This document shows positions 10,774 through 64,000 of a stretch of 64,000 nt of DNA, in pieces. Within the stretch, counting starts at the first letter, position 1. Each line of letters starts with the position of its first letter. The notes beneath the pieces were generated by a model, which was not told the DNA's origin, made no database searches, and worked only from the letters and a program-made list of their open reading frames with translations. This stretch comes from Mesaphorura yosii. Its lineage: Eukaryota > Arthropoda > Collembola > Poduromorpha > Tullbergiidae. Location: contig WIXG01000033.1 of the NCBI GenBank assembly GCA_009869945.1, positions 124,001-188,000 of the forward strand, written 5' to 3'. The position numbers were made by a program, and so were the translations under genes.

Positions 10774-11756
10774 ATGGAACAGTCCTGCTATCCACCAGAC
10801 GACTGTTATCAGCCGTCGTATCACAATAATTCGGTGCAGAACTTTTACTACAACCACGGCCACAGCCACAGCCCGGCTCTTCGTCATCAGCCCCATCAAG
10901 TCTACCATTCAACGCTTGCCAATGGCGGCTGGACGCCAAATCACCCATCGTCACATCCCAATTCACACTCACACTGGGTTCAGAAAGGATTGACCTACGT
11001 GGACGATGACGACGATTTGAAATCACTTCCAAGTTATAACAGCAGCAGCAATCACAGCCACCAGTCGGCGTCCAGCACATTGCTGTTTGAGTCGAAGAAC
11101 CCTTGCACCATTTCTGCGGGATTAAACAACAACAATGCAAATGTGTTTAATCTGAATCTGAGCAATAATAATGTGAATGCACCCGCGCCAGGAGATTGCG
11201 CGAACAATGACATCGAAAACAGTTACACATGCGGATACGCGAATTCCCTCAACACTGACACTGGCACTGGCCCTAATTGTAAACCAAAAGCGAACAATAC
11301 AAGTGTGAAGGGCAAGAAGAAAGGTCAAGTTCAGACACAGACAATAATTAGACGGGATGGGCAGGACATTGTTGTAGTGCGGAGAAAAGGTGTCGGAGGT
11401 CGACGGAAAAGTGAAAAGCCACCAAGTCCGATGGTTCTCAAGAAGCGACGCGTGGCTGCCAATGCGAGGTAAGAAAGCGCTTATGTTTTTGTAGATTTTG
11501 TCTTATAGTCCACACCTAATAGAATAGGTCAACTCTACAGTTATATACCGTTTCGTACAAGACTCAGTTTGCGCTTATTTTCATTTTCAGAGAGAGACGA
11601 AGAATGAATGGACTCAACGATGCTTTTGACCGCTTAAGAGAAGTCATTCCGTGCCTTGGATCGGATCATAAACTTTCCAAATACGAAACCCTGCAAATGG
11701 CTCAAACATACATTAATGCACTGAGGGAATTACTGAACGCACAAAAGTTAAAATAA
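10774..11756 (+). CDS. ato: Atonal-family bHLH transcription factor
   Basis: Two exons, 10774-11468 and 11591-11756, join in phase 2 to give 286 residues and a stop. The N-terminal 200 residues are low-complexity (His, Ser, Asn, Gln, Asp tract), as in many proneural proteins. A basic stretch rich in Lys/Arg precedes the bHLH. The bHLH lies at the extreme C-terminus: [19 protein letters not shown] in the basic region and helix 1, a loop with [20 protein letters not shown], and helix 2 ending in [11 protein letters not shown] before the stop. [14 protein letters not shown] is characteristic of the Atonal/Atoh1 group, which heterodimerises with Daughterless/E proteins, binds E-boxes and specifies sense organs and sensory neurons (family knowledge). 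The only intron cuts the basic region between Ala and Arg codons. Atonal itself, Amos and Cato are hard to separate without a tree. Confidence 0.9.
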
Positions 11757-28577: not shown

Positions 28578-31500
28578 ATGGACCGTCATCGCCACCGTCG
28601 GAAAGTCTTAAAGCGTAAGTTTTTCATAATCCCATGCCACCTTTTCTCAAACTATCCCGATTATTAATTACAACAACTCATTGCATGCAACAATGCTGTG
28701 CTTTGATTAGTTTGAACGCGTGAACAAGGAACTTGACACTTAACAGAATTCTTCAACGCGTCAAATTCATTTGGCCGTTTTGTCCTCGCGCAGCACTCAG
28801 CACCCCTTCCTGTCTTTGTCTTCTAAATCTCGAGTCCTAATCTGAATTGCGCAGATATTTTGCCTCTTCACCTGGATTACAATGCCAAACAGACAAGTTA
28901 CATGCGAGTATTATCTTTTAGGAGGTTAATCGGTATTGTCTTTCCACATATTGTTGTGTCCTGTTGAGATTCGCAACGGTGCGCATCAAGATCAGACAAC
29001 AATCAAATGCAAGTGACAGTTCACGATCAAGCAATACCAGAATTAGCGCAATACCGAACCGTGTTCATAGTTCATGGGCACGGTGACGATGCGTGCGCAC
29101 GGGATATTTTATTGGATTATATAACTCAACACTTTGTACGGAAGGACAGGAAAATACAATCAGACGAAAGGCAGAGTTCTGCCTGCGCTTTATAGCAGCA
29201 CAATTGAAAGCACTGGCTTGGGTTGTTGTTGTTGTTACGTACTGATTAGATGAGAGATTTCAATGTCGACACTACTGAAAAAGGACTCATGCATGTGCTC
29301 GAGATTCTTGGGAACGCATAGTCCAATCCGCATGAAGGATTTGAAGCAGAACGTGAATTTGCAAATTTGATTTCCTGTGTTAGTTGGACCTGAGCCTTTT
29401 ACGCATTGCTAGTTCAATCAGTTCAACGCTCGCCCAGCTAAGCTAATACTCATTACTTTTATTACTTTAGACAATTCAACGAATGATTGACCCTCGTACA
29501 GGAAAGGTGCGTTAGAGATGAAATACTGGAATTGTACAGCGGCGGTGAACATCCTTCCAGTTTTGGGTTTCGTTCTAGCCTACAACAATTAAATCCAGTT
29601 CATCCGCGCCACAATCCTGCGAAGGAAAAGCTAATTACTCCTCGCTCACGTGTATCATTAATGATCACTGATGCTCTCCTTTCTTTTTGAGATATAAGAT
29701 CAGATCAAATATCAATTCGAGTAGAATAGTTATAAATTCTTCGTTCCTTTATCAGTCTAACTTACAAGAAAAATGTAAACAGAGAGAAAAGCATGGCATG
29801 ATCCATGCTGGGCACGTCATTCTTGTTCGAATTTGTGTTTATTCATACAGGAATTAGTGCACATTGTTCGTGCCCGCAATCCGCGTCGTACCATCCCGCA
29901 AAACGCGAAAGAAATCAGCCTGCAGTCATCCTCCGTGTCGTCTCTTCCCGTCTTTTCTTCGCTCAGCTTTGTTATAATTAGAATTAAGGAAGACGAGCTC
30001 GTATACGCGAATAATGATTCTGATTCTGCTGCTACTGAGAACGCGTTCTCAGATTTCCTATCATTCCTGTAGGTAGAGTCGAGTGTTGTTGAAAAGACCT
30101 CAAGTACCATTGCCATTGTTGCATTGCCAAAATGAAACTTACTGTAATTATTCAATGCTTGAAATTCTTTGGTCTGTTTACTTTTATTTACCATTCACAT
30201 ACGCCCTTTGTCATTGGCCAATTGAATTACGACTGTGACTGCATACAAATTCTTAATTCGTTTCAGCGCTGATTCTGACGCCCTGTATGGAATTAAGTGC
30301 GTGGTTATTTTTTTTAGTGTCGATAGCCGTAGCACAGCAGATATCTTACCGTAAAAGTGTCAGTCTCACTCTGTCGATCGCGTATTTATCAGCTTCCACT
30401 TTTACGTTACAAAGCCAGGTTGGTTTATAGCAGATTCCATTTTGCAACCAGAAAATTAAGTGTCATCGGCAGATCATCGATTGTCGTTTTCACACTTCAA
30501 TGCCAGAGTTGTGTGAATTTTACGTGACACGCCGTGTGTGACCCCGCAGAATACAAGTGTGGCTGGCAGTTTTCGTTCGATTTGAAAACATGGAATGCGG
30601 AAAACCCAGAATAGGTTTTGTGAGTAAAGCATAGCGTTCTGCCTTTAATTCGGAAAAGTCAAGAATGCCTTTGGAGTCAGAAATCCAACTTCGATTTGGT
30701 GACAGGCAAAGGGTTAAGAAGAAACAGTGCTTAAAATGTGAGTCAAAACTAAAATCCAGTCCATTATCTCTTCGCCTTGATTAGAAGTTTGTTATTTGCA
30801 GTATCCCTACGAAAGCTCGTTAACTGTAGTAGTGAATTTTGGCATTTCAAGCAGAATGAAAATTATAGTTTACAGTTGCAAACTCATTGCTGAATGCATG
30901 ACAACGGCAAAATTTTGAAATGCCTGTCTATCCAAAATTAGCATCAAAATTGGGCATAAACGCCGATATACATTTGCTTAGAATAAGAAGTAGCAATTCA
31001 CAGAGAGACGTGGCTCATAATCGTAACGAAATTTTATGCTTATTTGCGAAATTGAAGCTATTAGGCATGAAAGTAACAATTTCATGGATGGGCGACGTTT
31101 AGCGACTTTTGTTGACGGTATTTATGTAGCAGTACATTTACTATTTACATTTTTCAATCTGCTTAGAGCTTGGCACTGCACTACACTGCGACTCTTCAAG
31201 GGGACCCTAGCCAATAAATTATAGTGAGCACGTGTATCTTACGAACGCGTACCGATTTCCGGCCTTGAATCGTTCTTGGCAGCATGTGGCCAATTACCAG
31301 AATGATTTTGATTCCAAAATTGGCTTTCTTTTGACGTCTTTTTTGTATTTCTTTGTCTTCAGTTTTAAACATAAACAACTTTCCATTTATGTTTACGCTT
31401 ACAGTTATGTTACACGGTCATATCCTTACAGTCCAGTACAATATACTTCCCTCTATATCCAATTTCCATTTCTAAGAATGGAACACAAATTCAGTCGCAC

Positions 31501-34500: not shown

Positions 34501-37500
34501 ATGAAATTGCAAGTAGGAAGTTTTTGTCGCACAAGTTTTGAGAAATCAAAAATGTGTTTGTGAGTTTGCTGTCTCCTGCTTCTGTTTTCTTTCCGCTGTG
34601 ATGCGAATAAGATTTTCGTACTTTTCTGGCGTACGCGTACTTTGACCGGAAATGGGAAAGTGAGACAAACAACTTCCCTTCACATCTTGGTGACGGAGCG
34701 TCTGTCAGTTCATGTACACAAATACACGTTTCATCTAATCTCTGCTACGCTCTGGTAGAGTGAAGTTATAGCTGGAAGACCCACATCGGAAGTTTAACTT
34801 ACTTGAATAGTTCTATTCTGCGTCGAATTTACAAATATTAAGTGGCGCATATTCGTACACACACCAAATTGAGGACCACCTAGGCGGGATAAAAATGTGC
34901 AAAATTATCGGAGTAATTGGGTGATCGCAGTGTCAGGTGAATAGTGAAATATTTCATGGACGTATTTATATTGGCAGTAGCAGAATGAGAACATGCACGA
35001 GGCTGTTTGTGCAATGCACTGGCGAGTGAGTCAAGGTAACATTTTATCTACCTGGGCTGAAACTGAACGGGCACGGCACGCGCATGCAGATTTGCGAATT
35101 TGCAGATTGAAGGTTAATACAGGCGGCCCAATCTGTAATTTCCGTGTTTTCCCAAAATAAAAATAAAAGTAGCACCATTTTCTCAAGGTGTAGTACGTCC
35201 TCCATTTCATTTACGGCGAGAACGCGGAGAACCGTTACTTCTTTATTCCAATTTTTACGAGTTTAATCAAATACACGTTAGATTCGCAAATTCTCAAACA
35301 TGCAAAGTCGTGCAGAGGCGCGCTGGTTGGAATCTTGGCTACTGATATCATGATACACCCTTTTCATGCATACTAGAGATTACATTAAAATTTTCGGTCA
35401 CGAATATTAAAGGTGATTAATCACCAGTTGTATCTTTTGAGAACCTTCATTTTATCAACGAATTGATTGGCAGACATGCGGAAACAGAACTCCAAGATTA
35501 AGATCAATTAATTTGAGCGCATGGAAAGGCCACGACGGCCGTGCCCAGTTAAAGGCACGGCCATAGCATTAGCTTGAATACCTTCAGTCTAAGAAATATC
35601 AGAGCAGTGACGGGGCACAAAATGCAAATTGAAATGACGCGATTTATGCAAGCTCCTCTGGATTCTGTTATAAAATGCTCAGGAATGGTTCTATGCATGA
35701 CCTTTTGGAGCAAAGCTCCATTATTCAAGTTTCGCTCGTGATAAAATGACCTTTCCATTTATTACTGGTACCCAAAAGACAGAGATGCATGCGGGAAAGG
35801 GCAAAGTACAGTTACCGGAATGGAGGACGAAGCGTCGAATTTACAGAGGGACAAGCGTCGCCGCGTCGGGAGTTTTGTTAGGCAGTGCTTTAAGTGCCTT
35901 TGGGAACAAAATCTATATGGGTGGCTCAAGATTTTCTGGACAGTAGAGAGTAGGAAAACTTATGCAAACTATGCATACTTAGCTTATTTTCATATTCATG
36001 TTTTTTCAGACAAGAGGTATGGCGGAGGATTTTACTGACATGACATTTTACATTAGCAAGACGTGAATCATGACTTTGTACGATAACAATAAGGCCCTGT
36101 TTTGTATTACCCAATTAATTTAGTCTTGCTTAACAGCTACTGACCAATGAGTGGTACGGTACAATTTGTTTGCACTGGCACGGCTGACGGGACTTTTGGT
36201 ACCGCGTATGCTGTAGACTCGGCATTGCGTGACTATAGCACTTTTTGTCTCAGACAGGCACTCCATAAAGCACGACGGGCAGTACATTACATAAATTATT
36301 ACAAGGCCTTATACATGGACGCTGGTTGGTGAAAGCTCTTCGGCAAAGTAAAATCATGCTTTTATGTTTCACCCAATCCAATTCCATTACACTGTCGTTG
36401 TTCATGTTTTTGTTGGCACTAATTGGTCATTTCACACTCAATTTGCATGCAGAGTGCAAGACTCAGGTTTTAAGTGTTGGAATAATAGTTTGCATGGTAT
36501 ACGCTTCAACTGCATGGCACCAGGGAGAAAGCCCCTGATGCCATTTACTCTTGTTTGTGAAACCAGTGTTTCACATTTGTGCAGGTCTTCAATGATGGAA
36601 GTGTTCATTAATGCATAAATTAATGATCTCATGGACTCTGCTCGTTGAGCTGTATTGATTTCCTTCAACTTTTACCTGCGACCGATTTATTGAGACGCCG
36701 TAAAGATTCTCAGTTTTTGTGACTTTTACGCATTGTCTAAGCTAGAGTTAAGTCTGCATGGAACATCCAAAAGTTTGTGATGGTGATATTAGCGTTAATG
36801 ACGCAGGTATCTGAAGATAATGACAAGTCTCTAAAAATACTGCACCGTATACCCGTAAACGAGACTCACGGCACCATTTCCACTTTCACTACAAATCATG
36901 CTAATTAGACGAGATGTCGCTTCCTCAGACAAAAGATTGAGAATCAATAAGGGACTACGCAACACAGCAAGCGCTCAAGGAATGGAAGAAATCGATGCAA
37001 CAGCTTGTTAAATCACACCGTTAACGGTGCAGGTGTGTTTGCAAGTCTGAAGCCTACACACGAAATGGAACTTGCTTTACCTGCCTGTAGTTTTCATGCT
37101 AATTTTGTTTTTGTAATTATTTTCAGGAATGTCAGCCAACTAACGCGCGACTGGATAAGGACAATGAAAACGGTGCCCAAGACGATTACGGATTTCTGTC
37201 AAGAAACGCGCGTCACACAATTGCATCAACATTGAAAGCAACCAAGCCAGGAGATAAGAAGTGCTCACCCTTTGATTCAACTCAAGGGCAGGTGCAGAAA
37301 CCAATTTCCACAGGTCAAGGCACTCAAGAATCGACAGCCCTCAAAGCAGTCAACAATTTGGAATATTCGTAAGCAGGCGTTCATTCCTTTCGTTTTGACA
37401 AACTGATGTAACGTTTAATTATGCAAAGAGGTTATGCGAGTGACTGTTTTTTTTTGCTGAAAAAAAAGTCAGGCGTGGTTCAACGTGGAATCCTACTTCA

Positions 37501-40500: not shown

Positions 40501-43500
40501 TGATGACCGCCTGTGCCTGTTATGTCAAAGCTCTGCTCTACTGGGAGGACTCGCCTCCTCTTCTGCTCTTCGTGTTGTAAAATGGCTCAATTAATCGCGA
40601 AAGCTTTCATCCATCGAAATCGCGAATTTTGGGAGGCGCGAGCCTCGAGGCTTGCCAGGCACCAGGCACGGAATCTTCGTCAGCATGACGATCGCGACGT
40701 TGACTTATTTGCGTAATTGCTTTCTCAAGCATGATGGTGTGAAGTCTTCACTTGACTTGCCTTACATTTCAGAGTAAGACTGAACACTGCGCTACGCTTG
40801 ATGAAGTGAAAATTGTGAGAAAATTAGCCAAATTAGAAAGACTTTACGAAACGCTTGATTTTAAACGCACGAGATCAATTCAATCGGAACTGCGGCCGCG
40901 TTATTCGGCGTTTCATTGTGTTTGTAGTGTTTGTTAGCTGACACTGAACTCTTGTCTCCGTCGTTTCATCTGGTCATCTTTTGCATTATTATCGCATTCT
41001 AACTGACTCGGGTCAGTGCCCCCTTGGCAGAATCGGTGTTCATTGAAGCAAGCGTAAAGAAATTCAATCATTAAATTGAAGAAATTGCAATTGCTGATGA
41101 ACTAGGCGGAAGGCATTATACAGCCTACTCGTTTTTTTTCAATTTCGTTTTTTACAATCGGATAAAAACTTAATAAAGCATAAATGATAAAAAATTCTTC
41201 ATATTTTTCAGAGTTTTGTGCTTTGTGTTTAAAGGAGTACAGTTGAAATGTAATAAAACAGTAGCCCGACTGGTAACTGGTCTGTTGTGGTTTTAGCTCC
41301 TAAAGAAATAGCATAAGTAAGACCTACTATACATTCAACTTGTTTGTCCAGTTTTCTTTCATGTCCCGTCCTATCGTACTTTCTCATAGTTCCCCACGCG
41401 TGGTTCACTGCGTGGTGGAACAGCGTCCGTCCGTGTATTTGTGCTTGATCTCAGTCTCAGCGTGCGAGCACCGCGTGGAATCGATTTGAGCTCTGGACCT
41501 GGCCTGGACTGCTTTCGCTTTCTATTGCATCACGCGGGTTTCACATTCACGGCTCACACCACGTTTCGCTGGCGAAGAGAAAGTGAAATGTCAGTCACAT
41601 CAGTCGGCATTTGTAGGAGTTAGTGAAAGCATGTGTATAAACTGTACTGCTGGTTTTGTCAGTCTATCGTTTTCGGCTCGCAGCAGGAATACTAAATAGG
41701 GTCAATTGCAGATGGACGCGAAGGGGCACGCGGGTCCGTCTCCTGCATTTACGTTTACTCACACGTAACAAAATGCAAGGCACGTCGTGTAAATTAGGTC
41801 CATAGTGCACTAGGGTCGTGTAATCGTGGCGTGTTTTTGGAAATAATAGCATTAGTGTACCAATAGCTAATATTTTACTCCACTCCAATTCCAAGAGGCC
41901 AGCGTGCCGATGTGCCGAGGGTGAGCACGGTGACGATTACAAACATTGCGGTTTAGGATTCCTGCACGCAATTCAATTCCTCGAGAGGAAAGTGAGAATT
42001 TAACGACAGTCTTGCGAAACGTGGTCGGCCTTAAATTCTTTGGTTAACCATGCACTGCTTTTAAAGAAGAATATGAAAGATTCCACAGTCATATAGTGGA
42101 CTTCGTGCTGTGAACTGTGAATGTGATCAGGAAATACTAGTCATGCCTTCATCATCCTCGTGCAAAATTAGTCCAGACGGTGCTCGGGAGGATTTCATGC
42201 GATCAGCCATGCAAATCTTCCTCGTAGTTTCACCTCCAGGCACAAAAATCCAGGTTACGTTCGGTTCTTGTTTGCTAATTTGTTGTGAATCTTGATGTTG
42301 TATACCGTCACCGTGTACCGTGTTGACTGTTGACGTTGCATGATTAGAAATTGAATGTCAAGTGTTCAGTGTCCCGACTTCTCAATCTGCGTACGGAATT
42401 GAAAGCCAACTGTTGACCAGAATGGGCTTGTTGGATTTACCGCTGTTTACGTTCAACGTGAGTATTTGTGTCTTCTACCAATTTAATTACGCATTGTGCG
42501 CTTGCCTTGCGCATGGGTTGGCTTTTTGTAGCTGGATTAAGAGAAGATGCTTTCTTGAGGCCGCACAGTACTGACTCGTATAAGATGACCAGAAGAATGT
42601 GGCCTGCCTGTGCTTGAGGAAAAGTACTAAAATTCAATGTGGCATGATTTATTGGTTGTGCGGGGTTGCGTTGTTCCTAGAGAATGTCGACTGAGATAGC
42701 TGATGACTAATTACTGCACGAGACTTCACATCAGCGTATAGCGTAGATATAGACTGAAGAGTAACAAGGCACGGCACGAAGCTTCTAAATCTTCGAGATC
42801 TTGTCGTGTCGGACCAAACCGTCACGTCTCGTACAACCCCAATTTCCAGACACCAAGCTCTTGAGCAAAGAGCAGTGTCAGTGCCAAGTTGCCAAGTCCA
42901 ACTTGGAACTCGGCTGCATCTGCATGACCTCAGGCTTTCACTCTAACTTTTCCTCGCCATGGCCAAAGTCATTTGCCGAGAAAAAATTAGGCTAGCCATT
43001 TAAGACTTCGGGCTTGAGGGCTCTGATGCCTGTGGAGGATTCTTCTTCCTGAGCATGAGTTTCAAATCTGCTGCTGTTAGCCAAAACGCCAAAATGTGGC
43101 ACTCTTCAATGCTTGCTTTGCATTAATTGTAAGAAAAGCATAAATGAACCTTGCAATGATGCTGGAATATTTTTACATGAGTGATGACAATGGTGCTTCT
43201 CAATCTCTCTAGTGCCAGATTCTCGACTGCGCTGCGTAGTGCTAGAGAATTCGATTAAGCAATTGGCAATGGACTTAGCGGACAGTAGACACAGAGACAG
43301 TACATGTCTCGTGCACGTGCTGCCAGTGCCTTTGCACTCGCTCGATGACGCCGACGCGACCATTTATCTTGCTCACACGGCCGACCGTGACATATTGATA
43401 AAGTATTGTCACTAGCAATTTATTTGGTCAAAAAGTTGCTCTCAAGATGAAGATTCCACTGACTGAGATAACCCGGGCGGCACGAATTGTAAACTGGCCG

Positions 43501-49500: not shown

Positions 49501-52500
49501 CTGAACTTATGACTTGTGGGCGTCCATGGCTCGCGTCCAGCTTATTGCTTGACTGATTTGCATACTTATTCCGTATTTTTCCGTGCTTCCAGAAACAGAA
49601 ACACAAGTTCTTCAGTGTGTCAGCCGAGGATACAAACAACTACTCCGACGTATCGACGCTGGGTTCGTCCACAACCCTCGAGCCAACTCAGCATGGAAGT
49701 CCAGGCCACCAATCTCACCATCCGCATCTGCAGCACTTGACTGGATCCGGGTCCATTTCACATGAAGGATCACTCAAAGTCAAGTCAACTGGAAAACAGA
49801 CAACGAAATGGGGCGGACTTTTCTCCAACTCATTCAAGGTACATTTAGACACATGCCCAAGCCCAAGAACCATGGAACCAGGAAACCTAATTCTAATGAG
49901 ATTATGGCTTTGACACGCACATGTCAAGCTCAATTAAGCCTCCACCCTTCATTTTGAGGAGCTTTTAATTAGTAAACAAGCAACCCATGCAATGTGGTTG
50001 AGGTTCAGGCACCTTGTAAATGCGAACCACACCGACCGAAATAACAGGCTTAATTTAAACAGTTTAAGAACAAAAGCTCTGTTTGAGATTGAAGTACCAG
50101 GAAGTCGAATTAACCTTGGAGTGCAAGGTTTCACTTTCTCTTTCGCATGGAGAAATTCAAAGAAGTTCAAAGTTCCCCCATGTATTCTACTCTTGTATGC
50201 CATTCATAGCATTATTTCTGCTGAGCCGAAGGTGAATAGTCTATAAGTTCACCGAGAAGCTGTGATAGTAGATAGAAATTAAGTTAATTTGAGAGTTTGT
50301 TTTTAAATTGTTTCGAATTAACATACCCGAGTATCTTTGTTCCACTGCATTGATGAGGCTGACATTAACACAAAAAAGGAATCAGGATTTGCCTTCTCAC
50401 GCCATTCCATATATATTTACATTGACTAGATATGATATCTTAATGAGATGTACTGGGTTTTACGACCTTGATGTAAAATGTTACTTACAGGACAAATCTA
50501 AAATGGAGCTTCTCGCCGAGCAACTAAACTCATACTCGCAGAATGGGACTCCGAAGCCAAGTTTCCTTCCAAGCGCCGATGAAAATGAATGTAAATCAAC
50601 AAAGCACACACTTTTCTATGCCGTCAGTGGCCCGCTGATTACAAAGCATATTTTGACACTGAGCTGTGATCGCAGTGAAAGCTCTTACGCATGGTTTCTT
50701 GAAAATTTTGTGGTAAAAAGTTTGTGATGCTGTCATTGCAGCTCAACTCACCCTCGAGAAAGATTGGAAATGCATTGTGCATGGTTGGAAGGACATGAGC
50801 GAGCGAAACATTCAGCAGCAGACTGCAATTTGGGAACTGGTTGAAACTGAAGTTGTGTACTTGCAAACGATCAGAGTCATCACAGACGTAAGTTATATGG
50901 GCTTTTGGACTTCGATTGTGAAAATGACAACGAAAGAAAGAAGTTTAACTTTGCGTCTCTGGCTTGTACTTCTTTTTCAGCTCTTTCTTGCGTGTATCTA
51001 CAATCTTCAAGCAGCCAATATCTTGAATGAGATTGATCGTGATCAACTGTTTAGCAACATTCCTGAAATTTACAAATCAAACCAGATTTTATGGCTCGAC
51101 TGCATTCTTCCAATGGTGCAAAAAGCACGCGAGACGCATCTGCCGTTGGAACCAATTGAACTACGGAATGGTTTTCGTAAGGTATGAAACTCATTTTCTA
51201 TTGCGATCGTTTCCAGTTGAACCTGACAAAATGTGTAATTGTAATTGGTTGTATGTTACGTTTCTTTACATAGTTTGGCACCATTTGTCAACCGTACACG
51301 AAGTACTGTCTCGATCAAACCAAATGTCAACGATATTGCCGAGAGAAGTATCAAGAAAATGAATACTTCAAGACGTACTTGGCGGTAAGTTTTCTATATT
51401 CGTGTGAATATTTTATCCATCTACAGTGTATCATTCGTGTGTTAAATATTAGCCAACTAACAAACTCACCGTGCTACCACTGGGCACCAGATAGAACTTT
51501 GATTAACTGGACCAGAAGGCATCTAATAATTAGTGCTTGCGAAAAAATTGTAGTTTTACCTGCGTCGTCTGTGCCCAGTGTCCATTCTGAAATTCCTTTG
51601 AATCCAAAAGTTTAATGGCAGTTTTTGGCTCTGGGATACGATGACACGAACACACAAACTACAGATCTTATAATTTACCGCAATTTTAACTTCCATGGCT
51701 AAATTAACCTCGTTGAATATTGATAGTTGATTTGACACATGTATTTACAGTCAAACATTCTGAGAGGATCATTTCGAGTTGGCTAGTTTGCTTAAGAAAA
51801 GAAAATCATCTCCACCATTCTCTTAACGTCATGAGGCTAGGCCGATGTAATAAATAGAATTTCAAATCTGGAAGTATAAATCTCGGTACTATTGAATTGA
51901 GCGCCGCGGTGACGTGAACTTTCGCCTTCACATTCTCCGCGTATGCGTCCTATGCCGCTGTTCTTCATAGAAAAGCCATGGGAAAAGGTCAAAGCCAGTG
52001 TAGTTAGTCTGAAGTGACTAAAATCTGTGGAAGAGCACAATACGCAGTGCCAGTACGTGATTCTGTCTGATTAAAACTTCATAAATATCCCCGTCATCGC
52101 TACCTTCTTACCAACGAGTTTCCATGCTGCACAAAATTTCGTTTTGTTTGCTAAAATTATATTAGACATTTTAGCGTCCATTCTCGGTGCTTCTAACAAT
52201 AGCTTCTTAACATGTCTTGCATTTCTCAGTGGTGTGAGACAAGAAAGGAGTGCAACAGACTGAGACTAATGGACATCCTGGTGCGACCTATGCAACGAAT
52301 GACCAAATACTCCCTACTTCTGAAAGCGATACTCAAGCACACAGAGGACCTGGAACAACGAAAATGTATCGAAGAAATGGTAAGCGTAAGCACTTCCAAA
52401 TTGCTCACGCATAAAACCGCGACGCAATTCAGAATTTACGTCACCGGCATTGATATGATTGAATTTGGTCTTGATAGATTTCAAGCGTGGAAAAATTCGT

Positions 52501-55500
52501 CCGCAGCGTCAACGGCGCACTGCGAAGTCGGCAGGACGCGGAGAGACTGCAAGGAATTGCGGAGCGCATTGAGGCATATGATGCAGTGGTGAGTTTCATC
52601 TTCATATTAATGAAGTATAGCAAGATCCGCCTTCACAAGAGGCTGGCTTTGATGATTTTTCACACGTGCGGCATAAATCTCTCCAAAACGCTTTCACCTT
52701 GCACAGATTTTCCAGATTTATTTCAATTTATCACATTTGGGAGACTACTTTACGGTTTTACCTCCTGAAACTGCTGACTATCACGGACGTGCGCGTGGAG
52801 AACGGATAGGCTTATAAATAGAACAGACTTGTTTATCACTTCAGCTGAGCTCAGAATGAACATATATCAGTTGTAACTGTAACGGTTTAGCCCTCATTTT
52901 ACCCATTCTAATTCAATTTGTATGAACGCTAATTCACTCGCAACTTACAATGTACTTTTCTACCTGTACAGGAAACTCGCGAAGATGAATTGGAGTCGTT
53001 AGTGAAGGCACATTCAAAATTAGATTTATTTCATCCCATGCCCGGCTGTTCTGCATCAAAACGATGGTTAATATTTGATGTTGATGTCAAAATAAAAGAC
53101 TCATTCACTTCCAAGGTAAGTGACGCGCTTTGCTGGTGCCAGAGCGTGCCTCTAAGCGCAGACACGAAGTTTATCCATGCTTAAAAGCGTAAATATACAT
53201 AGCCAGCAAAAGAAAAGATTAATTAGAATTAGACTCGAAATACCCAGAAAAAGGCCTTCGCCTTCGGCCTCTTTCGAATTAGAATCGCCTGCAGACTTGC
53301 TGTTCATTTAAATTCTGTTGGAACTCGAATTCCTTTTTACGCCTTAGAATTTTAGCGTAAATTAAAAACAGACGCAGATGTGTGACGCAAGTTTCTTTTA
53401 TACGAATAAGTCATAAAACATGGCTTTCTCCTACTCACTCTCAGAACCGTGAATATTTCTCGTCTCAAGGTTAGAGTAAGTGTAAGTTTACAACTTTTGA
53501 TGAAACGTGCTAAGTGTGTCTCTATCTCTGGCCCTGCCCCATAAACAAATGAACAGCCTAATTTAACGTAGGCATGTGCCGAATGCTGAAATTCTAAAGC
53601 ACAAAGGATTGTGACGACATTGAAAAGGCGTAGGGACTGAAAGCTTTCTTGAGTCTTGAAGTTTACGACCGTCTTTTTAAAATGCTTTCTTCTTTAAACC
53701 TGAATTTTATGTTATCTGGAATAAAACAACGCTTTTGTCTAAGAGAATTCACTTCTAAAAAGCCAATTAACTTAGAGCTTCAGGGTTTTTTCATAATTTA
53801 CCGTCTTAAGCACCCAAGCTAATTAACGCCATGAAATTGACGAACTGCGCAGCTTGAAAGAAAGCTGTCTCATGTTCCTTTGCAATGAGTAGCAAGGATT
53901 TGACTTCCTTCATATGTCAACGTCAATTTTCAGAGTAAACTGCGACTGCCCTTACAAATAAGTAATTAGTTTCAGTGAAAGTTCGTTCGTGCATAGAATT
54001 CTGTATTACCAGTATTACATGATTACGAGCCACAGGCACATTGCAGTTGTTAGCCTACGCCAGTGTCGCAAGTACCGATGTCGTGAAATGAAGGCGAAGT
54101 GAAAGAAAGCCACTACTTTTCATAAATGCGGAGGATTAAAATGTAATCCTCCTCCGCGGCCAAGTTTGTTTTGATTCTCCAGCCCAACGCTCAGCGACTT
54201 GGCTTTCGCCTTTCTGATCTTTTGATTACTGCAAGGATTTAAGTTTTATTGCTATTAAAAATGGTCTTGTCATGCTCGCGAGTTGCGAGACTGTAATTAC
54301 TTTTCTCAAATTGCGTGCCTCAACAAAGCGCGCGCGGCGCCTGCTGCTTCCAAGTCTAAAGCCTTGTTGTTTGTCCATTTTTCAGATGGATGCGCACTGC
54401 TTTCTTTTCACTGACATGCTCCTCATTTGTAAGCCACTGGGTCGGAGTAAAGGCGAGAAGATGAAAGTCATCAGGCAGCCATACATCGTGGATCGTCTCA
54501 TAATAAAAGAACTGAGCAAAGACCCATGCTCCGTCGGCCTGGTTTACCTTAATGAATTTGGGACAGCGTCAGCAGCACTCTCGCTCCATTTTAATGAACC
54601 GAAATTACTTAAAGTGACGTTAGATCATATTAAGAAGGCGCAGAGAATTTACAATGAGGTGAAAGAAAAGGTAAGGAATTAACAACTAAGAACTAAGGCC
54701 TTGCCTGAGGTGAATAGAATGTACAGGCTTTATAAATTAGCTAAAATGCCCAGACACGTCTCACGCCGTTGGAGCTTTTTGAAATTCTTTCATTAGTTCA
54801 AGTTGCTACTATTAGATTCAAACTCACTTGTAGGAATTCAGAGAAACATTTTCATCTCATTTTAGGAACAAATGGAGTATCAAGGTGATGAGGAGAATGG
54901 TGTGATGTTGTACCTGAATCACCATTTGGGTGGCTCCAGCAGAGGAAGTCAATTGTCCAGTCTTGTCCATTCGCACAGGTAAAATCTACGTTCACTTAAA
55001 GTCTGTTGGCATGCATATGACATGGCTTGGTTGTATTGTGATTTACAGTGGATCAGTGGAAATGGAAGCTTCAGTCCTTTCAAGCCAAGCCGTTAGTTTT
55101 GAGCACGAATTACGTGGATCAAGCTTAAGCTCCGATGAAGGTAACATCAGCGAAGCTGCGGGGATAAGCTTAGTGAAGTCACGTTCCATGAGCTCCGAGA
55201 CTGGGGCGGGAAGGCCGACTTCTCCCAGACGAGAAAGGTAATGAATGGGATTTGCATTGGGGCAAAAATCGACAGAAGCCAATAATGTTTAATTACTCTG
55301 TCTAGGCGTCTTTTTTTGTCAAAATCCCCAAGCCCGAGCCCCAATACGCTCACCGTGCAAATTCCTATCCCAAATTTGTCCGGACAGTCGTTGCCAAATC
55401 TCACAACCGCTTCAGAGACGTCTCCGCCCACGTACGCACACAATCTCTCCCTGACCGTCCCGAAATCGCTGCTGAGTCCTACGCATCGCGGGGTCTCTTA

Positions 55501-57177
55501 TCCGCCGCCATCTCCGAAAAGCTTAACAAGGTCCTACGCACTTCTCCAATCTCGAAATCCGCCCCTGCAGAAATCAAAGAACATTCTGGGCCCTGGGACA
55601 ATGAATCCGGAGAAGACTGTTAGTCTTGATGTGCAAGTTCCAGAGATTAGAGGTTAGACTTTCTTTTCTTTGTTTCTATTCACAGTTCACACTTTCACCA
55701 CACCACAATGAATTCTTTCTTCTCAGAGATTAAGACGCATAATAATAATAATCGTAAAGCTTTATGAAACAACGCAAAAGACATTCGCGCATTGTTTCGC
55801 CACAATCACACAGACGGATTTATTTTTATTAGGTCTGACGTATGAACCACAAGATGCTTACGCTGATTCAAGAGCCAACGACGGCATACCAAGCAGCAGC
55901 CCTACGAATTGCTATTCACCACACGAACTTAAAAGGCCTAAAGAGTTCTTTCCCTCCAACTTTGATGAGCACAATGTAAGTTGCCAAACTGAGACCGAGC
56001 CACAGCCGACGACGGATTATCACTTCACGCGCTACGACGTTTCGTTCCCCACGACCGCAAGCGAAAGTCCAGGCTTTGGAAATACGAAGCGATTATCTCG
56101 AAATGAGCGTGTTGAGTCGAAGCGCTATCATACTGCTGGAGCAATCGATGATATGAGGGTAAGATAGTCTAGTCGTATATTATCGTATATTATTACTTAT
56201 GCGAACTTGTGCCCTTCTTCAATTCGCAGAAGGAAACTAGCAAAGATCGTGATTCAGCAATATACAAGCGACTTTCTTGGAACTGTGGACCTCAAAAATT
56301 GCAGGAGCATCAATCCTCGATTCAGGGCCAGTACGATGCGTCAGTGCTGTCAATCAATTCTAAATCTACTTGGTAATTATTAATTACTATTCAATATCCG
56401 AGCTACTTGCCGAGTAGAGTTTTAAAACCAGTCGCTTCTAAGCGCCTAGCGCCTTGAATTTTAATTTGCTCATGAAAGCTTGATTTGATTATTTTAAAGG
56501 GCAATGCTATTTTTGCTTTTTTTTTTATTAGTGAAAGCATGGCCAGTATTCGTAGCTCTTCTGGAGTTTCGTCAACCAGTTCGCTTTTACATTGTATTAG
56601 TGATCTGGAATCTAATTCGACGTCAACCGCGTCGACCACAATCACAACTCCTTGCGGCGTGACCCCAACTCAACTGCCGTATCACCCGTTGCTTCCCGAA
56701 CACACACCGGGGCCTCCGTGCACGAGTCCGAGTGCTGCAAGTGGAAGTAACGCTAAGCAGCTGCCAAATGTCCGAATTGCGTTGTGTGAGCCTGGCGAAT
56801 CAGAACGAGTTTTACTCAACAATAAGCAGGATTTGGAGTCCCACCTGCAAGAAATTTCGAACCACATCGAGGCGCATTTTGCTGAGGGCGCCCAATGCAA
56901 GACGTGTTCCTCAACTCCTCAGAGCCCGAACCATAATCAGAAGGAGGGGGGTTTCAGAGTGCGGCCGTCGATGTCTCAGTCTTCGTCCTACACCGGTGCA
57001 ATTATGGGACAGGGCCCTAGCTCTTCGCCGGACAAAAACAACTCCCTCCTGGATTTCGTCCTGTTGGACTCCTCACAATCATCGTAAGTTGATAGTCGAG
57101 AAATATGGACCCTGGACCCTTTTTCATGCAATGCATGCTAATTATGACGTGTTTGTTTACATTGTAGGGAAGTTTGA
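28578..57177 (+). CDS. PLEKHG5: PLEKHG5/Syx-type RhoGEF, copy A
   Basis: Rho guanine-nucleotide exchange factor. Twenty-five coding exons keep phase throughout: 28578-28614, 31528-31704, 31798-31865, 37127-37368, 39299-39410, 43660-43848, 43970-44082, 47475-47617, 48619-48686, 49593-49838, 50491-50590, 50742-50887, 50981-51181, 51274-51384, 52230-52379, 52478-52588, 52972-53115, 54386-54670, 54866-54978, 55049-55237, 55306-55652, 55833-56158, 56230-56372, 56532-57083, 57168-57177. The total is 4323 nt, 1440 residues. A Cys/His N-terminus (HACPGHNGGRPCFH) leads to a ubiquitin-like RBD segment (ALRPIFDKRNLSISNVNIFV, about 313-361). The DH domain (about 520-740) includes AIWELVETEVVYL, DQLFSNIPEIY and MDILVRPMQRMTKYSLLLKA. 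The PH domain (about 745-875) has MDAHCFLFTDMLLICKP and LVYLNEFGTA. Ser/Pro-rich blocks follow. The C-terminus ..SSEV matches the PDZ-binding end of vertebrate PLEKHG5. Family members activate RhoA at membranes and junctions. The first five introns reach 5.3 kb. Confidence 0.9.
28615..31527 (+). other. First intron of RhoGEF copy A
   Basis: A 2.9-kb intron joining a 12-codon first exon to the Cys/His exon, both phase 1. No exon with usable sites was recognised inside. It holds a 10-bp perfect inverted repeat at 30350-30406. Additional promoters for shorter isoforms are possible but not visible. Confidence 0.5.
30350..30406. repeat. Perfect 10-bp inverted repeat
   Basis: CGTAAAAGTG (30350-30359) and CACTTTTACG (30397-30406) are exact reverse complements separated by 37 nt. 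Located in intron 1 of RhoGEF copy A. Role unknown. Confidence 0.6.
31866..47474 (+). other. Large introns of RhoGEF copy A
   Basis: Introns at 31866-37126 (5.3 kb), 37369-39298, 39411-43659 (4.2 kb) and 44083-47474 (3.4 kb) separate the N-terminal exons. I found no nested gene, transposon or RNA gene in them. Only short overlapping frames and simple-sequence patches are present, such as GTGAGTGTGAGT near 46770 and a TTCTGTAACG doublet near 47742. Confidence 0.45.
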
Positions 57178-58818
57178 CCGGAGTATCTGCCTCAATCTAC
57201 GCCGAAGACAAAGGTTCGGAATTGGTTGAGGAGCAAATTCGATAGCTTTAAGAATTCGGGTTAAATCTTGTACGCCAGCAATATTTTCGATGACTTTAAG
57301 TGCTAATAGAAGTTTATGCAAATATTTCGTCTCAGCGTTGAAATTATTATGAAGTAATTTTTGAAGAACGTAAATCAAGGAAGTAATGTGAGGCGTGTGA
57401 GCATATTATTACGATTATTATTCTGAGCCAGAGATTATTAGCAAAATGTGATATTCACGAAATACTGGTGTAAGTCTAAATTCTAATCATAGAGCACAAG
57501 AATGTATGTACAAATAGTGCTATTTTGTGATTAGATTCCTTGATGGTGCTGTGTCAAGTGTCTCCTAAATCATCGGCCTATTTCTTCTAAATGTACGCTA
57601 CATTTGCTAGTTTAGGTGTTCAACATGTAATAATTTGTTTGCTTTACGTTTTAAGCGACTATTACTCGTTACTCGTACTCTGCTTTTTAAAATGTGATCT
57701 AGCTATGCAAAACTACAGTATTAAAAACGTGACATATCCTTCGAAAAATGAATGGACAAGCCGGCAGTTTTTGCTCAATGGTTATTTTGATTTATTCGAA
57801 GAGCTATGAACGAGCATATGAACAAAGGACGTAGTGAGGCTTACAACCGTTGTTTTTATTCTTAAATGCTTAAAATACACAGCCCACTCTTACAAGTTTG
57901 GCAGTACCATCCGGTATGGTCCGTGTCTCCGCTAATTATTAGATTCACATCAACCTTAACTAAACTTTAGTGTTAGGTACTGTTAGCTTTATTTGCGATT
58001 TACAAAATACTACTTACAGCTACTATGCTTTGTCACAATTTACCCATTCAAATTCTTTTCCAACCGGAAATGAGACTTTGCGATATTATCATTACCTATG
58101 TTACATGGAAAAGTAATCGTTTTCGTTTCTCTTAGGCCAGACGTTCCAAATACGAGAGAAAGATGGCCGAGAACAAATTTCGATACAATGCGTTAAGATC
58201 TGACGAGTATGAATTTACACATTTGAACTTACACTATACTTAGCAAGCATGAAAACAGAATCAGAATGCGTCCATCTTATCGACATCTAAATTCCTGATT
58301 AAAGCTTTTGTAATAATAATACATTTTGTATCACATCTACTCGCTTCAATCACACACTTTAAATTAAGGTTCGAAGTATCACAACATTCACAGACGTTAA
58401 ATTCACAGGTTTCAATAGTACGGTTTGGAAGGTACATTATCTCTACTATGTAGTATCTCAGTTTGTGTGGTATGATTCGTTGGAAGTTTCCAGCAGTTCC
58501 AGGAATAAAAATTTCGAATAGCGACTTATCGGTTAGGTTAGTTTATCTTTCAATTTAAAACCTATAGATTATGTACAAAGCGAGCAGATCAATCGAATAT
58601 CGAAATCTCTCTGCACGGTTTTATAAGGATATCGTTTCCCCTTTTACAACTATGAATGAGTAACCTATACGAATAATTCCACAAAAGTGGTCGTAAACAA
58701 CAACAGCTAGTCTACTACTTAATAATTAGTAATTCGAAATTTTATTTAATCTATGGAATTTCTGGCGCATCCAAATCCTCAATTTTGTTTTGGGCGTAGC
58801 TTTAGGTAACTGATCAAT
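57178..58818. other. Convergent spacer between the two RhoGEF copies
   Basis: A 1.64-kb AT-rich interval bounded by the stop codons of two tail-to-tail genes. It must contain both 3' UTRs. AATAAA-like sites exist on both strands (plus near 58504, minus near 57855). If transcripts reach these, their 3' ends would overlap and could pair. No coding sequence or transposon was recognised. Confidence 0.5.
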
Positions 58819-61800
58819 TTAAACCTCACTGCAATGTTAAAAATGTGTTAATTACGCATCCCAATCAAACAGATCATGGAGTATTACAATTACAATAACT
58901 TACGAGGCTTCCATTGATGCGTCCGTTAGTATAAAGTCACGAATTAAGAACGGCTCTGATTTGCAATTTGTTGCGGTTGCAGTTCTTGTGTCCTCACGGT
59001 TGCATTCTGGGGATCGCTCCTCATCGTCTTCGCCTTCATGAACTGTATGATTCACTCTTTGGCCTGTAGTTGAGTTGCAATTCCTGCACTGATTCCCTTC
59101 CGCGAAGTGGACTTCGATATGGTTTGAAATTTCATGCAAATCGTTCTCAATTTTGCTTGGTTTGTTGGTCACGAACACCTTTGACGGATCCGAGGGCGAT
59201 TCACACAGCGCAATGCGAACGTTTGGCAATTGTTTACAGGACGCAGCCACAGTTGGGCTCTTGACCGCTACTTTTGGTTTCAAAGCCGGTGGGGGCGGTG
59301 GATCGTGCTCGGGTGGCTGCTGATGATGTGGCGGTATGTGCTTCCCAGATCCAATGGAGCCAACTGTGGTGGCGACAGATGACGAGCAAGGCTCCACGTC
59401 ACTAATGCAATGCAAGAGGGAACTGGTTGAAGAAACTCCGGATGAACTACGAACACTCGTCATGCTTTCACTACTACAAAAGTAAATCATGAACAGAAAA
59501 GAAAACAACATGTAAAAATGATTCGAATAAAACATCAAAACGCTTTCTAAGCACGCACACAACACAACATAAAGAACTCAACCTCAATTTACATCCTCTT
59601 AACTCAACAATAAAAAAGTGGCAATTGCATTATACCTGAAAAATTGCCTGCTTGATGGAATTGATGACTGATTCTGGAATTGTGCCTGCTGCTGTTGTGG
59701 GCCATAATTCCAGGATAATCTTTTGTGAATGGCTGCGTCACGATTGCTCTCTTTCTGTTGACGTACAATCAAACAATCGCTTTACTTCTATGCAAAGTGG
59801 GCGAAAATGGAAACCTACGCGCGCCAGGCGCCAATTAAAGTGAGAAATCGGACCTTGATGTCTTCAATGACTCCAGCCGTGTAGTAGCGTTTTGTGTCGG
59901 TGCGGTCATTTCTTGCGAGGCGTTTTGAAAGGGCAAAAGCCGTGTTACTACTGTTCATTGGATTCGAGGGGTCATGAGGGTGATAGTAATGATTGCCTTC
60001 AGATTTGTCACTCTGGTGCAAAATTAGAACTTCGTCGTCACCATCTTCGTTCTCGTGTTCGGCTTCATGCATGTCGTGGGTTTCCAAGTACTCCATGCTG
60101 CCATATTCTTCTGCACCGGAACCACAACCAGAAATAGCAGACGTCACGGAAGGCGTTGGCGGAGGTTGTGGGACCACAGGAGAAACATCATTGCTTGGTG
60201 GAATGCCTGAAGACAAAGAAAGGAATAAACACGTTATTAAGGTAATTATCGTGGACTTTCCATGTGCATAACGCACGGGCATTGAGTCAGAAGTGTAGTA
60301 AAATGGTGCTCATAAACCTTTACAGCCCGTTATAAATATTTATACGCAAAGAACAAGGGAATTGTTGCTTAACCGCAGCCAAGTTGCAACTATTCCCGAT
60401 GGTAGTTGTATTTATGACCTTGCTTTTAACCACTTTATGACAAGCAAGCAGACTTATGCTTAATGCTTTAGACACTCACCTCTAATCTCAGGAACTTGAA
60501 CATCAAGATTAACAGCTTTTTCCGGACTCGTGACAATATGTTTCGACTTTTGCAGCGGTGGGTTCCTGGATTGTAGCAGTGCGAAGGATCGGCGTAAGCT
60601 ACGTGGCGATGGCGGTGGATATGAGATGCCGCGATGAGTTGGGCTCAACAGCGACTTTGGAACCGTGAGTGAATGGTTGTGGTGTGTCATGGTAGGTGGG
60701 GATGATTCCGAGGCGGTGGGAATGTTGGGCAGCGACTGACCAGACAAGTTTGCAATTGGAATATTCACGGAAAGTGTGTTTGGGCTGGAAGCTTTCAAAA
60801 CCCTCCTGCAAATAGATACCACGTTATAGAATGTCTCTAAATTCGATCTGACTGCAAAAAATTGGGTCATTGGAATCTTACCTTGGCGAACCCGGGCCGG
60901 TGTCCGTGCTCATGGACCGTGACTTCATCAAGCTAGCTCCCGTATTACTGCCTCCAACTGATGATTCGTTCCCATTTCCATCGTCGGAGCTGAGACTTGA
61001 CCCTCGCAATTCGTTCTCGAAGCTGACTCCACGGGTAGAAATGGAAACTTCATTCATTTCAACGGATCCACTGAAAAAGAATGACGGCATTCTTGCTTTG
61101 TTTGAACCAACATCATATCGACAATAGAAAGAGCCAAGTTTACCTGTGGGAATGAATTAGACTTGACAGCTGGCTGGTTCGACTCGAACCAACGCGTCCA
61201 CTTCGGGAATTCAAGTAAACGTTGTCATCCTCATCGTCGGGATTCTCCATGTGCTCCTGAAACAAATTCATCAATAACTAAAAATGCAAAAATTTTAAGA
61301 GCATCGATTACAAACCTTTTCTCTGGCTTCCAAGAATAGCTTTTGTGCTTTTTTCATGTGATCAATGAAACCTTTTACCAGCTTAATTTCATTGAAATGT
61401 AAGGAGAGGGCTGCTGAGGCGGTGCCGTACTCGTTCAGATAAACCAGGCCAAAGGAACATGGATCTTTACTCAATTCTCGCGTGATGAGACGATCGACCA
61501 CGTATGGTTGGCGAATGACTTTTACCCGCTCGCCTTTACGACCGACAGGCTTACAAATGAGGAGCATGTCGGTGAAGAGAAAGCAATGTGCGTCCATCTG
61601 AAATAGAAAATTGGGCAAGTCGTGGTTCAATTTCTTGCTGTAGCTTAAATATTACATTTAGCCAGGACTGGTAAATTCTATTTTCAAGATGAAGAGACCA
61701 AATGAAGTACTCATTATTTTGATAGAAGGAGTTAATAGAAATAGCCAAAACAAAGGCGTTCATCCTCCTCCACATCGCCAAATGCGCTTGTCGCCAACAT

Positions 61801-64000
61801 CAAAGATCAACTTCAAGTATGTCTAGTCTCGTCTGTTGTTTTTCATCGTAATATGTACAGAATTAGCATTAGTGAAGCTGAATCCTGAATGGAGAAACTT
61901 TACACTTGATAATTTGAGATTTGACACCGTCGCAGCTGCCCGCAACGTAGAAAGGTGACAAAAACAAAACAAATAGGCAATTAAGGCAATGACGCCAGTC
62001 AATCCAGACATACTCAGGCTTAATCAAAGAGTGATTCAAATATAGACTGGATTGAAACGTTAATTATGCGGTGGTGTCACCAACAATGCCCACGCATTAT
62101 TGAATGTTTACGTGAAAGGTGAAATACTCGGCTGCTCTTTGGGCAATGCGTAGATGACTTCGCATCCACACTTGCACGTGTAGCACTCTAAAATATGTCA
62201 CGCAGTGGCGTGACATAAGAGAAAGATGCAAGCTGTTGACAACTGACAAGTTCAATTCTCAGAACCTTACATTAAGTTCAACTTTCTACGCGTGATACAA
62301 ATTAAAATTTTTCTCAGAACTTTTCTCATTTCGCTGTAGTACGACTGTGCTGTCCCTTGCGTAGCATTCGGCGCGGCGTATTCGTGAAAAGCCATAAAAA
62401 GCATGGCTCACGGTTCAATAAAACTTTACTCCACTTTCACAATCAAAAGATGGAGAATAAAGACTCGTAGACCCGTATTTAGATCATCGCCTTGGACAGA
62501 CGAAAAACTCGACGAGACCTCGAGACAGAAAATTGCCGCTAAAATTGTGGAAAATTGAGACTGCGTTTTAATAGAGTAATAAGAATTTGCTTAAAATACT
62601 CCGGAAATTCGTCTTTGAACCATGCCACTATTTATTGCCAGCCATCGACTTACCTTCTGCTTTCTTTACGGTATAAATCCAATTTCTCACTTAATTAAAC
62701 GGCGTATCGCGCACAAGCCATTTTACGTACCTTGGACGTAAACGAATCCTTAATTTTCAGGTCGCACTCAAATAAAAGCGACCGCCTCGCCGAAGTACAA
62801 CCTGGCATCGGTTGAAACAGATTTAATCGAGAATGTGACTTTACGATTGATTCCAATTCATCTTCACGAGTTTCCTTTAAATACGCAGTAAACGTTCCAA
62901 TAAATTTCAAATAAGTCGCATAAATATAAAGCGTGCAACTTTCTCCGCCGAAGGTCAACTAGAACTTACCACAACGTCATAAGCTTCAATACGCTCCGAA
63001 ATTCCCTGAAGACGTTCGTTGTCTTCCCGACTCCTTAGAGCGCCGTTCACACTGCGCACAAAGCGCTCCACACTCAAAATCTATATAATAAATTGGAAAT
63101 ACGTATAATTATAAAGATTTCTTCAAATCTGACATTTCCCCCAACGCCCAGCGCCACACATACCATCTCCTCCGTACACTTTCGTTGCTCCAGGTCCTCC
63201 GTGTGCTTGAGTATAGCCTTCAACAAGAGTGAATATTTGGTCATTCGTTGCATTGGTCGCACGAGAATGTCCATCAATCTCAGACGATTGCATTCCTTTC
63301 GAGTCTCGCACCACTTTAAAATACAAGCATAGTTCCTTTAGTATCCAGCCACGCTCAATTTTCTCATCAGAAGCCACGGGCACAAAGCCTTGCCAGAATG
63401 GAACTTACAACTAAATACGCTTTAAAATACTCATTTTCCTGATACTTCTCACGGCAATACTGTTGACATTTGGTTTGATCCAGACAATACTTTGTGTATG
63501 GCTGGCAGGTACTTCCAAACTGTATAGAACACAAATTTCAGTGTCAGTCGTAATTGCAGTGCCACCATTCAACATCGCCTTTCACTTACTCTAAGGAATC
63601 CATTTCTAAGCTCCGAGGGTTGAAGTGGCTGTTTGGTTTCACGTGCTTTTTGTACCATTGGCAGGAAACAATCGAGCCAGAGCAAATTGTTTGATTTGTA
63701 AATTTCAGGAATGTTGCTAAATAATTGATCACGGTCGATTTCGTTCAGGATGTTGGATGACTGCAGATTGTAGAGGCAAGCGAGGAAGAGCTGATGGGCA
63801 AATAACGAATTTAGATGTTAGCGCTAGCAATAGCAATAGCTTTATGCCTTTTTAGATTGGAGGTATTTTACAATATCAACCTCCTGACAATTGTAATTTT
63901 ATTCTATGCTATCTATGCACGGACTATTGGCTGCAGCGCAGTGACTTACATCAGTAATGACTTTCACAGTTCGTAGATAAACGACCTCGGTTTCCACGAG
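58819..64000 (-). CDS. PLEKHG5: PLEKHG5/Syx-type RhoGEF, copy B (5' part outside window)
   Basis: Paralogue of copy A on the opposite strand, entering the window in the exon encoding ..LVETEVVYLRTVKVITD. Exons: >64000-63950, 63790-63590, 63519-63409, 63313-63164, 63080-62970, 62874-62731, 61597 to about 61316, 61256-61144, 61070-60882, 60805-60480, 60206-59854, 59754-59636, 59470-58904 and 58828-58819. Phases match copy A throughout, and lengths of the DH/PH exons are identical apart from one codon in the PH exon. The exon with MDILVRPMQRMTKYSLLLKA differs from copy A at 1 of 50 residues; the exon with LFSNIPEIYKSN agrees at 55 of 67. The PH exon (MDAHCFLFTDMLLICKP) and the Ser/Pro-rich tail (SLTVPKSLLSPTHRG) are kept, and the last 10-nt exon gives Ser-Glu-Val. 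No stop or frameshift was seen, so it is probably functional. Confidence 0.9.

Follow-up and report, generated by a model that had tools for sequence, protein, structure and literature searches.

The window analyzed here, a 64,000-nucleotide stretch of Mesaphorura yosii DNA (positions 124,001 to 188,000 of the forward strand of contig WIXG01000033.1, C33 below, which has 364,220 bases in a genome of 93 Mb), carries two RhoGEF genes, copy A on the forward strand and copy B on the reverse strand, which very probably descend from an ancestral PLEKHG5-type RhoGEF gene that was copied whole, inverted tail-to-tail, and long kept as two working genes. The window was extended by 49 kb of flanking sequence on the right and 10 kb on the left; coordinates above 64000 are extended window coordinates, and the contig coordinate is the window or extended value plus 124000. 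Translated comparison of both strands gave homologous blocks in collinear order, spanning 42140-57240 of copy A and, in descending coordinates, 74608-58756 of copy B, and splice sites were then chosen jointly for the two copies. The coding sequence of copy A (42143-57177, 21 exons) encodes 1265 residues and that of copy B (74605 to 58819, 20 exons, reaching past the window end) 1250 residues, each with a single terminal stop. As a preliminary description of the window had stated, the genes face each other tail to tail with their stops about 1.64 kb apart, the distance from the end of the A stop (57177) to the B stop (58819) leaving a convergent spacer of 1641 bp (57178-58818) with a guanine-cytosine content of 35%.

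Nineteen of the 20 introns of copy A match those of copy B in position and phase, the remaining one, A intron 6 (49839-50490), having no counterpart in copy B, which carries exons 6 and 7 as a single exon; this intron may reflect a loss in B or a gain in A. The 13 pairs of exon lengths given in the preliminary description (A/B, 201/201, 111/111, 150/150, 111/111, 144/144, 285/282, 113/113, 189/189, 347/326, 326/353, 143/119, 552/567, and 10/10) are all reproduced by our models, and its 14th shared exon is the one truncated at the boundary of the window (B, 64095-63950). Each difference in exon length is a multiple of three, as had been noted, and this holds also for the 5' exons beyond 64000 when A exons 6 and 7 are counted together; likewise, the order and phase of the shared exons are kept, with equal intron phases in the full models. 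The extension past 64000 that had been recommended completes copy B, placing its 5' end at 74605. The gene start given at 28578 is not borne out, the first coding exon common to B beginning at 42143.

Silent sites are close to saturation between the two copies, with a proportion of synonymous differences (pS) of 0.754 and of nonsynonymous differences (pN) of 0.214; the LWL85 method gives a synonymous divergence (dS) of 1.77 and a nonsynonymous divergence (dN) of 0.25, the Nei-Gojobori (NG86) dS being saturated and not correctable. Differences affect 221 of 347 fourfold sites (0.637, where unrelated third bases would be expected to give 0.749), and 817 of the 1207 aligned codons encode an identical residue. 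Identity amounts to 88% in the DH window and 78% in the PH window and falls to 38% in the linker around exon 18. In a blastn comparison (E 0.01) of A 28001-58000 with the B strand over 57501-95000, the 16 plus-strand blocks all lie on exons, one of them continuing across the short intron that separates exons 9 and 10, and the sole opposite-strand match is the shared spacer against itself. The earlier view that the DH and PH exons are held while introns and linkers have diverged is borne out by these values, and its by-eye counts of identical residues in three exons (49/50, 55/67, and 32/37) are exact. The near-saturation of silent sites, together with DNA similarity confined to exons, leads to the conclusion, also reached in the preliminary description, that the pair arose by an ancient whole-gene inverted tandem duplication and is no assembly artefact, and the sequences speak clearly for long purifying selection on both copies. 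Because silent sites are near saturation, silent changes alone set no upper age, and the lineage-specific origin proposed in the preliminary description is a conjecture. In sharing their exon-intron structure while their silent sites have diverged, and in lying side by side on opposite strands, the copies have the features of an old inverted tandem duplicate; as is generally known for such duplicates, a whole gene has been copied adjacent to its source in opposite orientation, and the present case is ordinary in kind, unusual only in its age and completeness. No larger palindrome including neighboring genes was detected at E 1e-3 when open frames (at least 25 residues) of the 74.7-113 kb region were compared with the stretch that begins 10 kb left of the window and ends at 42 kb.

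Relatives were sought within the same genome, in which 30 of the 43 RhoGEF exon matches were taken as loci for comparison. Copy A finds the locus of B with 499 summed bits and B finds that of A with 515, the next locus (C333) following with 132 and 161 summed bits and the remaining ones with at most 55, so that, judged by these scores, A and B are mutual nearest among the compared RhoGEF loci. The C333 locus (L010, G000:C333:7359-8373) is a third RhoGEF locus with 35-47% identity in the DH pieces, its match extending just upstream of the DH domain, and it has an AG beside the matching residues in another phase. With this paralogue as outgroup over 176 DH sites, one change is private to A and three are private to B, while all three sequences differ at 17 further sites; from these counts, neither DH domain is running away. 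Searches of prokaryote genome contigs and viral contigs yielded 30 and 4 pattern matches, respectively, with zero confirmed, and a plasmid search with A exon 20 gave no match.

Three other explanations of the pair were weighed. That A and B represent two ancient subfamilies (e.g., PLEKHG5 and PLEKHG6) that are neighbors by chance would agree with the near-saturated silent sites, but is very improbable in view of the high identity of the DH and PH windows, the long C-terminal stretches conserved outside the domains, and the far greater distance of the C333 locus in matched DH pieces. Inverted arms are generally known to be able to convert each other, and repeated gene conversion might accordingly keep two such copies alike; however, pS ranges from 0.59 to 0.93 across all 29 sliding windows of 60 codons and is low in none, which speaks against any recently converted stretch and makes this explanation hardly credible. 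Palindromic placement is a known misassembly signature, but an artefact of assembly, or a head-to-head join between two haplotypes of one gene, is practically out of the question, since silent sites are near saturation (the dS of 1.77 computed between the copies is far from the near-zero value of an artefact), most introns, the spacer, and the flanks fail to align, and one intron differs. Both the artefact and gene conversion are rejected on the uniformly high silent divergence.

The domain search, made with the first 798 residues of A and the first 761 of B, found the RhoGEF domain PF00621 over positions 1-180 of 180 with 125.8 bits in A and 125.5 bits in B (cut-off 27.6), and both gene models have -SEV at the C-terminus, by sequence a class I PDZ ligand, which the 10-nucleotide last exon completes. 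The nearest chain of solved structure was ARHGEF11 (71.8 bits), with no PLEKHG5 chain among the structure matches. Several points weigh against the reading of the pair as a whole copied PLEKHG5-type gene. The evidence base is the genome sequence of one assembly, with all compared loci taken from the same genome. Matches to PH families lie where expected but stay under the respective cut-offs (PH_5, 22 of 30 bits in A; SOS1_NGEF_PH, 21 of 27.7 in B), and the RBD family PF02196 matches at the same place in both copies, again below cut-off (E 0.0047 in B, 0.044 in A), leaving the putative RBD-like region before the DH domain weakly shown. The first coding exon was placed by a conserved ATG (GTC-ATG), and 5' exons particular to one copy may exist. 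Finally, the PLEKHG5/Syx-type name given in the preliminary description fits the architecture of the genes, which is the basis of their putative identification with PLEKHG5 and GEFmeso.

We take Drosophila GEFmeso (gene number CG30115) to be the fly PLEKHG5 homologue. GEFmeso was recovered in a two-hybrid screen with active RalA (PMC8216719), and the title of the 2006 paper of Blanke and Jackle, which that source cites, adds Cdc42. The PLEKHG5/Syx/Tech proteins are described as GEFs specific for RhoA that carry PDZ-binding motifs at the C-terminus together with an RBD-like region, the worm member ending in SDV (PMC3282746). The genes described here resemble this family, including C. elegans RHGF-2, in having a DH domain followed by a PH-like region, a putative RBD-like region before the DH domain, and a class I C-terminal PDZ motif (-SEV here, SDV in the worm). 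They differ from it, set against the family by description only, in being two mirror-image copies and in carrying a conserved in-frame stretch after the stop.

In copy A, exon 1 (42143-42253), the first shared coding exon with the conserved start, is followed by exon 2 (43660-43848), exon 3 (43970-44082), in which the RBD-like region begins, exon 4 (47475-47617), which continues it, exon 5 (48619-48686), exon 6 (49593-49838), whose precise acceptor is less certain, and exon 7 (50491-50590), joined with exon 6 in copy B. The DH domain begins in exon 8 (50742-50887), continues through exons 9 (50981-51181) and 10 (51274-51384), has its core in exon 11 (52230-52379), the exon with 49 of 50 residues identical to B, and ends in exon 12 (52478-52588); exons 13 (52972-53115) and 14 (54386-54670) cover the PH region. 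Exons 15 (54866-54978), 16 (55049-55237), and 17 (55306-55652) lead to exon 18 (55833-56158), the least conserved (29/99 residues), and exons 19 (56230-56372) and 20 (56532-57083) to the 10-nucleotide exon 21 (57168-57177), which completes -SEV and the TGA stop.

In copy B, on the reverse strand, exons 1 to 6 lie in the extension (74605-74495, 71408-71226, 71036-70942, 68202-68060, 67071-67007, and 66890-66557, respectively), and exon 7 (64095-63950) lies within the window only at 63950-64000. The DH domain occupies exons 8 (63590-63790) and 9 (63409-63519), with its core in exon 10 (63164-63313) and its end in exon 11 (62970-63080), and the PH region occupies exons 12 (62731-62874) and 13 (61316-61597). 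Exons 14 (61144-61256), 15 (60882-61070), 16 (60480-60805), 17 (59854-60206), and 18 (59636-59754) are followed by the 567-nucleotide exon 19 (58904-59470), for which acceptor 59470 was preferred, acceptor 59473 (570 nucleotides) being also possible and scoring slightly higher; the 10-nucleotide exon 20 (58819-58828) completes -SEV and the TAA stop.

Upstream of the shared exons, the A strand before 42140 has no match below E 1e-3 among the best 40 listed from a comparison of A 20001-51200 with open frames of the B strand to 113000, the weak ones being at 0.003 or above. A codon-usage scan of the A 5' region gave no placeable exon, the best two segments being 37103-37369 and 42789-42992 (score 17). 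Upstream of B lies a 162-codon open stretch (extended 80901-80416, reverse strand; C33:204901-204416) of coding-like codon usage followed by a phase-0 GT, and of 34 open frames in the right flank the one holding it has, narrowly, the highest codon-usage score (0.143 versus 0.135 for the next), a score trained on copies A and B themselves. No counterpart of this stretch was found in A 24001-50000 (best E 3.0). It is a lead only, possibly to a B-only first coding exon or to a separate gene.

The similarity of the two copies reaches beyond their stop codons. In frame after the stop, 28 codons in A (57178-57264, including the next stop) and 30 codons in B (58726-58818, likewise) are open, and within them an 18-codon core, picked after the alignment had been seen, has 12 identical residues and a protein score of 72, compared with scores of at most 30 in its other five frames. 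The median for 18-codon windows within the coding sequence is 69. In 20,000 column shuffles, a protein score as high as that observed arose once for the 27 paired codons and never for the core; among the shuffles free of stops, it arose in 1 of 611 and 0 of 3274, respectively. Two control sets, one of 71,980 ungapped pairs lying deeper in the 3' regions (within 800 bases, shifted by at most 60) and one of 40,432 pairs from matching introns (shifted by at most 12), each had a best score of 18, and past the extensions the 3' regions of A and B score no better than controls. Protein-coding, in-frame conservation after the stop is seen here between two paralogues of one genome. That the core is conserved like coding sequence while silent sites are near saturation suggests constraint on the tail in both copies. 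A genome search for further copies of the tail returned two matches, which are A and B themselves; an amphipathic helix in the tail is unsupported, 424 of 2000 and 1035 of 2000 shuffles doing as well; and no report of a conserved in-frame tail beyond a PDZ ligand was found among open-licence papers.

As to the route by which the tail might be translated, the stop contexts are TGA-C in A, which we take to be leaky, and TAA-A in B. The RNA after the A stop folds somewhat better than its shuffles (113 nucleotides, z -2.45, 5 of 200 as good; 69 nucleotides, z -1.81, 10 of 200), and that after the B stop shows no fold beyond shuffles (z 0.18 and 0.96, 108 and 162 of 200 as good). In A, the TGA-C context, the downstream fold, and a very poor alternative acceptor (-7.7) together make stop-codon readthrough, as predicted from these features, the likeliest route. 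Copy B, with TAA-A, no fold, and a passable acceptor (-0.6), speaks less for readthrough, which is uncertain there. Readthrough has been described as abundant in the majority of the insects tested and in a crustacean, but not as abundant in any species tested outside Pancrustacea (PMC5100048), and UGA makes up only 25% of the readthrough events found in flies (PMC3840789), so that the TAA stop of B is no disqualification. The present genes resemble the insect and crustacean readthrough genes in having an in-frame tail with protein-coding conservation and, in A, TGA-C with a modest predicted fold. They differ in that the comparison is of two paralogues of one genome with no species alignment, that B has TAA-A without a fold, and that translation of the tail is a candidate only.

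Production of the tail by alternative splicing, without readthrough, to a phase-0 AG just past the stop (A 57184, B 58809) is an unlikely route. It would account for the position of this AG just before the conserved core in both copies and for the lack of conservation in the three residues preceding the core, and the B site scores -0.6, inside the range of the modeled B acceptors (minimum -0.9). Phase-0 donors scoring above 0 are present in the last seven exons of A (55975 and the end of exon 18) and of B (internal, 59179). However, the A site is a GAG scoring -7.7, compared with a minimum of 0.4 among the modeled A acceptors; the donors of A and B lie at non-matching places, the only one in B (59179) scoring 0.3; and the phase-0 end of B exon 17, the counterpart of that in A, did not score above 0. 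Still more doubtful is the view of the tail as an untranslated element, either a conserved part of the 3' untranslated region or a product of chance: the fold past the A stop, better than most shuffles, could point to it, but B has no such fold, and the conservation is frame-specific and at the protein level, with the shuffles and the 3' and intron controls described above far below the observed score of 72.

Tentatively, and with somewhat less than even confidence, we propose that the RhoGEF gene before duplication had a leaky stop after its PDZ ligand, readthrough of which appends 28-30 further residues, a conserved basic tail by which -SEV is hidden, and that both copies kept this switch. 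To judge from the family, the DH-PH unit would charge a GTPase of the Rho family (RhoA- or Cdc42-like) with GTP by exchange of guanosine diphosphate for guanosine triphosphate, the RBD-like part would receive a regulatory GTPase, and -SEV would tie each protein to a PDZ scaffold. Normal termination would then expose -SEV for scaffold binding and a translated tail would bury it, so that one gene would yield a Rho activator in two forms, one bound to the scaffold and one free. The strength of the switch is perhaps different in the two copies, given TGA-C plus a fold in A and TAA-A in B. Further candidate differences between A and B lie in the linker of exons 18-19, in the intron that B lacks, and in the 162-codon open stretch upstream of B.

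Elsewhere in the window, pieces of GMC oxidoreductase, from one or more genes, lie at 20080-23315 on the reverse strand (PF00732 at 23049-23315; 20080-20376 below cut-off), with a dihydrouridine synthase frame (PF01207 at 21817-22416) situated between them. A NUFIP1-domain protein is encoded at 25105-26424 on the reverse strand and a bHLH protein, presumably of the atonal group, at 11523-11756 on the forward strand. Telomere-type TTAGG repeats occur in the genome at G000:C1051:11606-11690 and on other short contigs, some as short blocks inside contigs, the pattern search giving 40 matches versus 0 in the reversed control. Other marker searches of the genome gave 3 globin, 6 arginine-kinase-type, and 26 hemocyanin-type exon matches, none to COX1, and none to the insect odorant-receptor family, for which the controls of the search gave no match either. 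A kinase piece of 107 residues has a taurocyamine kinase chain as its first match, ahead of many arginine kinase chains (24 sequences at E 1e-20), and the markers taken together point to an arthropod.

As a duplication, the pair is one more old and intact tandem case, of interest mainly as a clean setting for the question of why a second Rho activator copy is retained. Retention may have come about through divided expression or dosage, and with both copies active, one activity would be supplied in two doses under separate regulation. The tail is of greater interest: if translated, it would directly and testably switch the PDZ ligand by which GEFs of this class are placed, and the A/B pair provides a natural comparison for it, with two stop contexts before the same tail.

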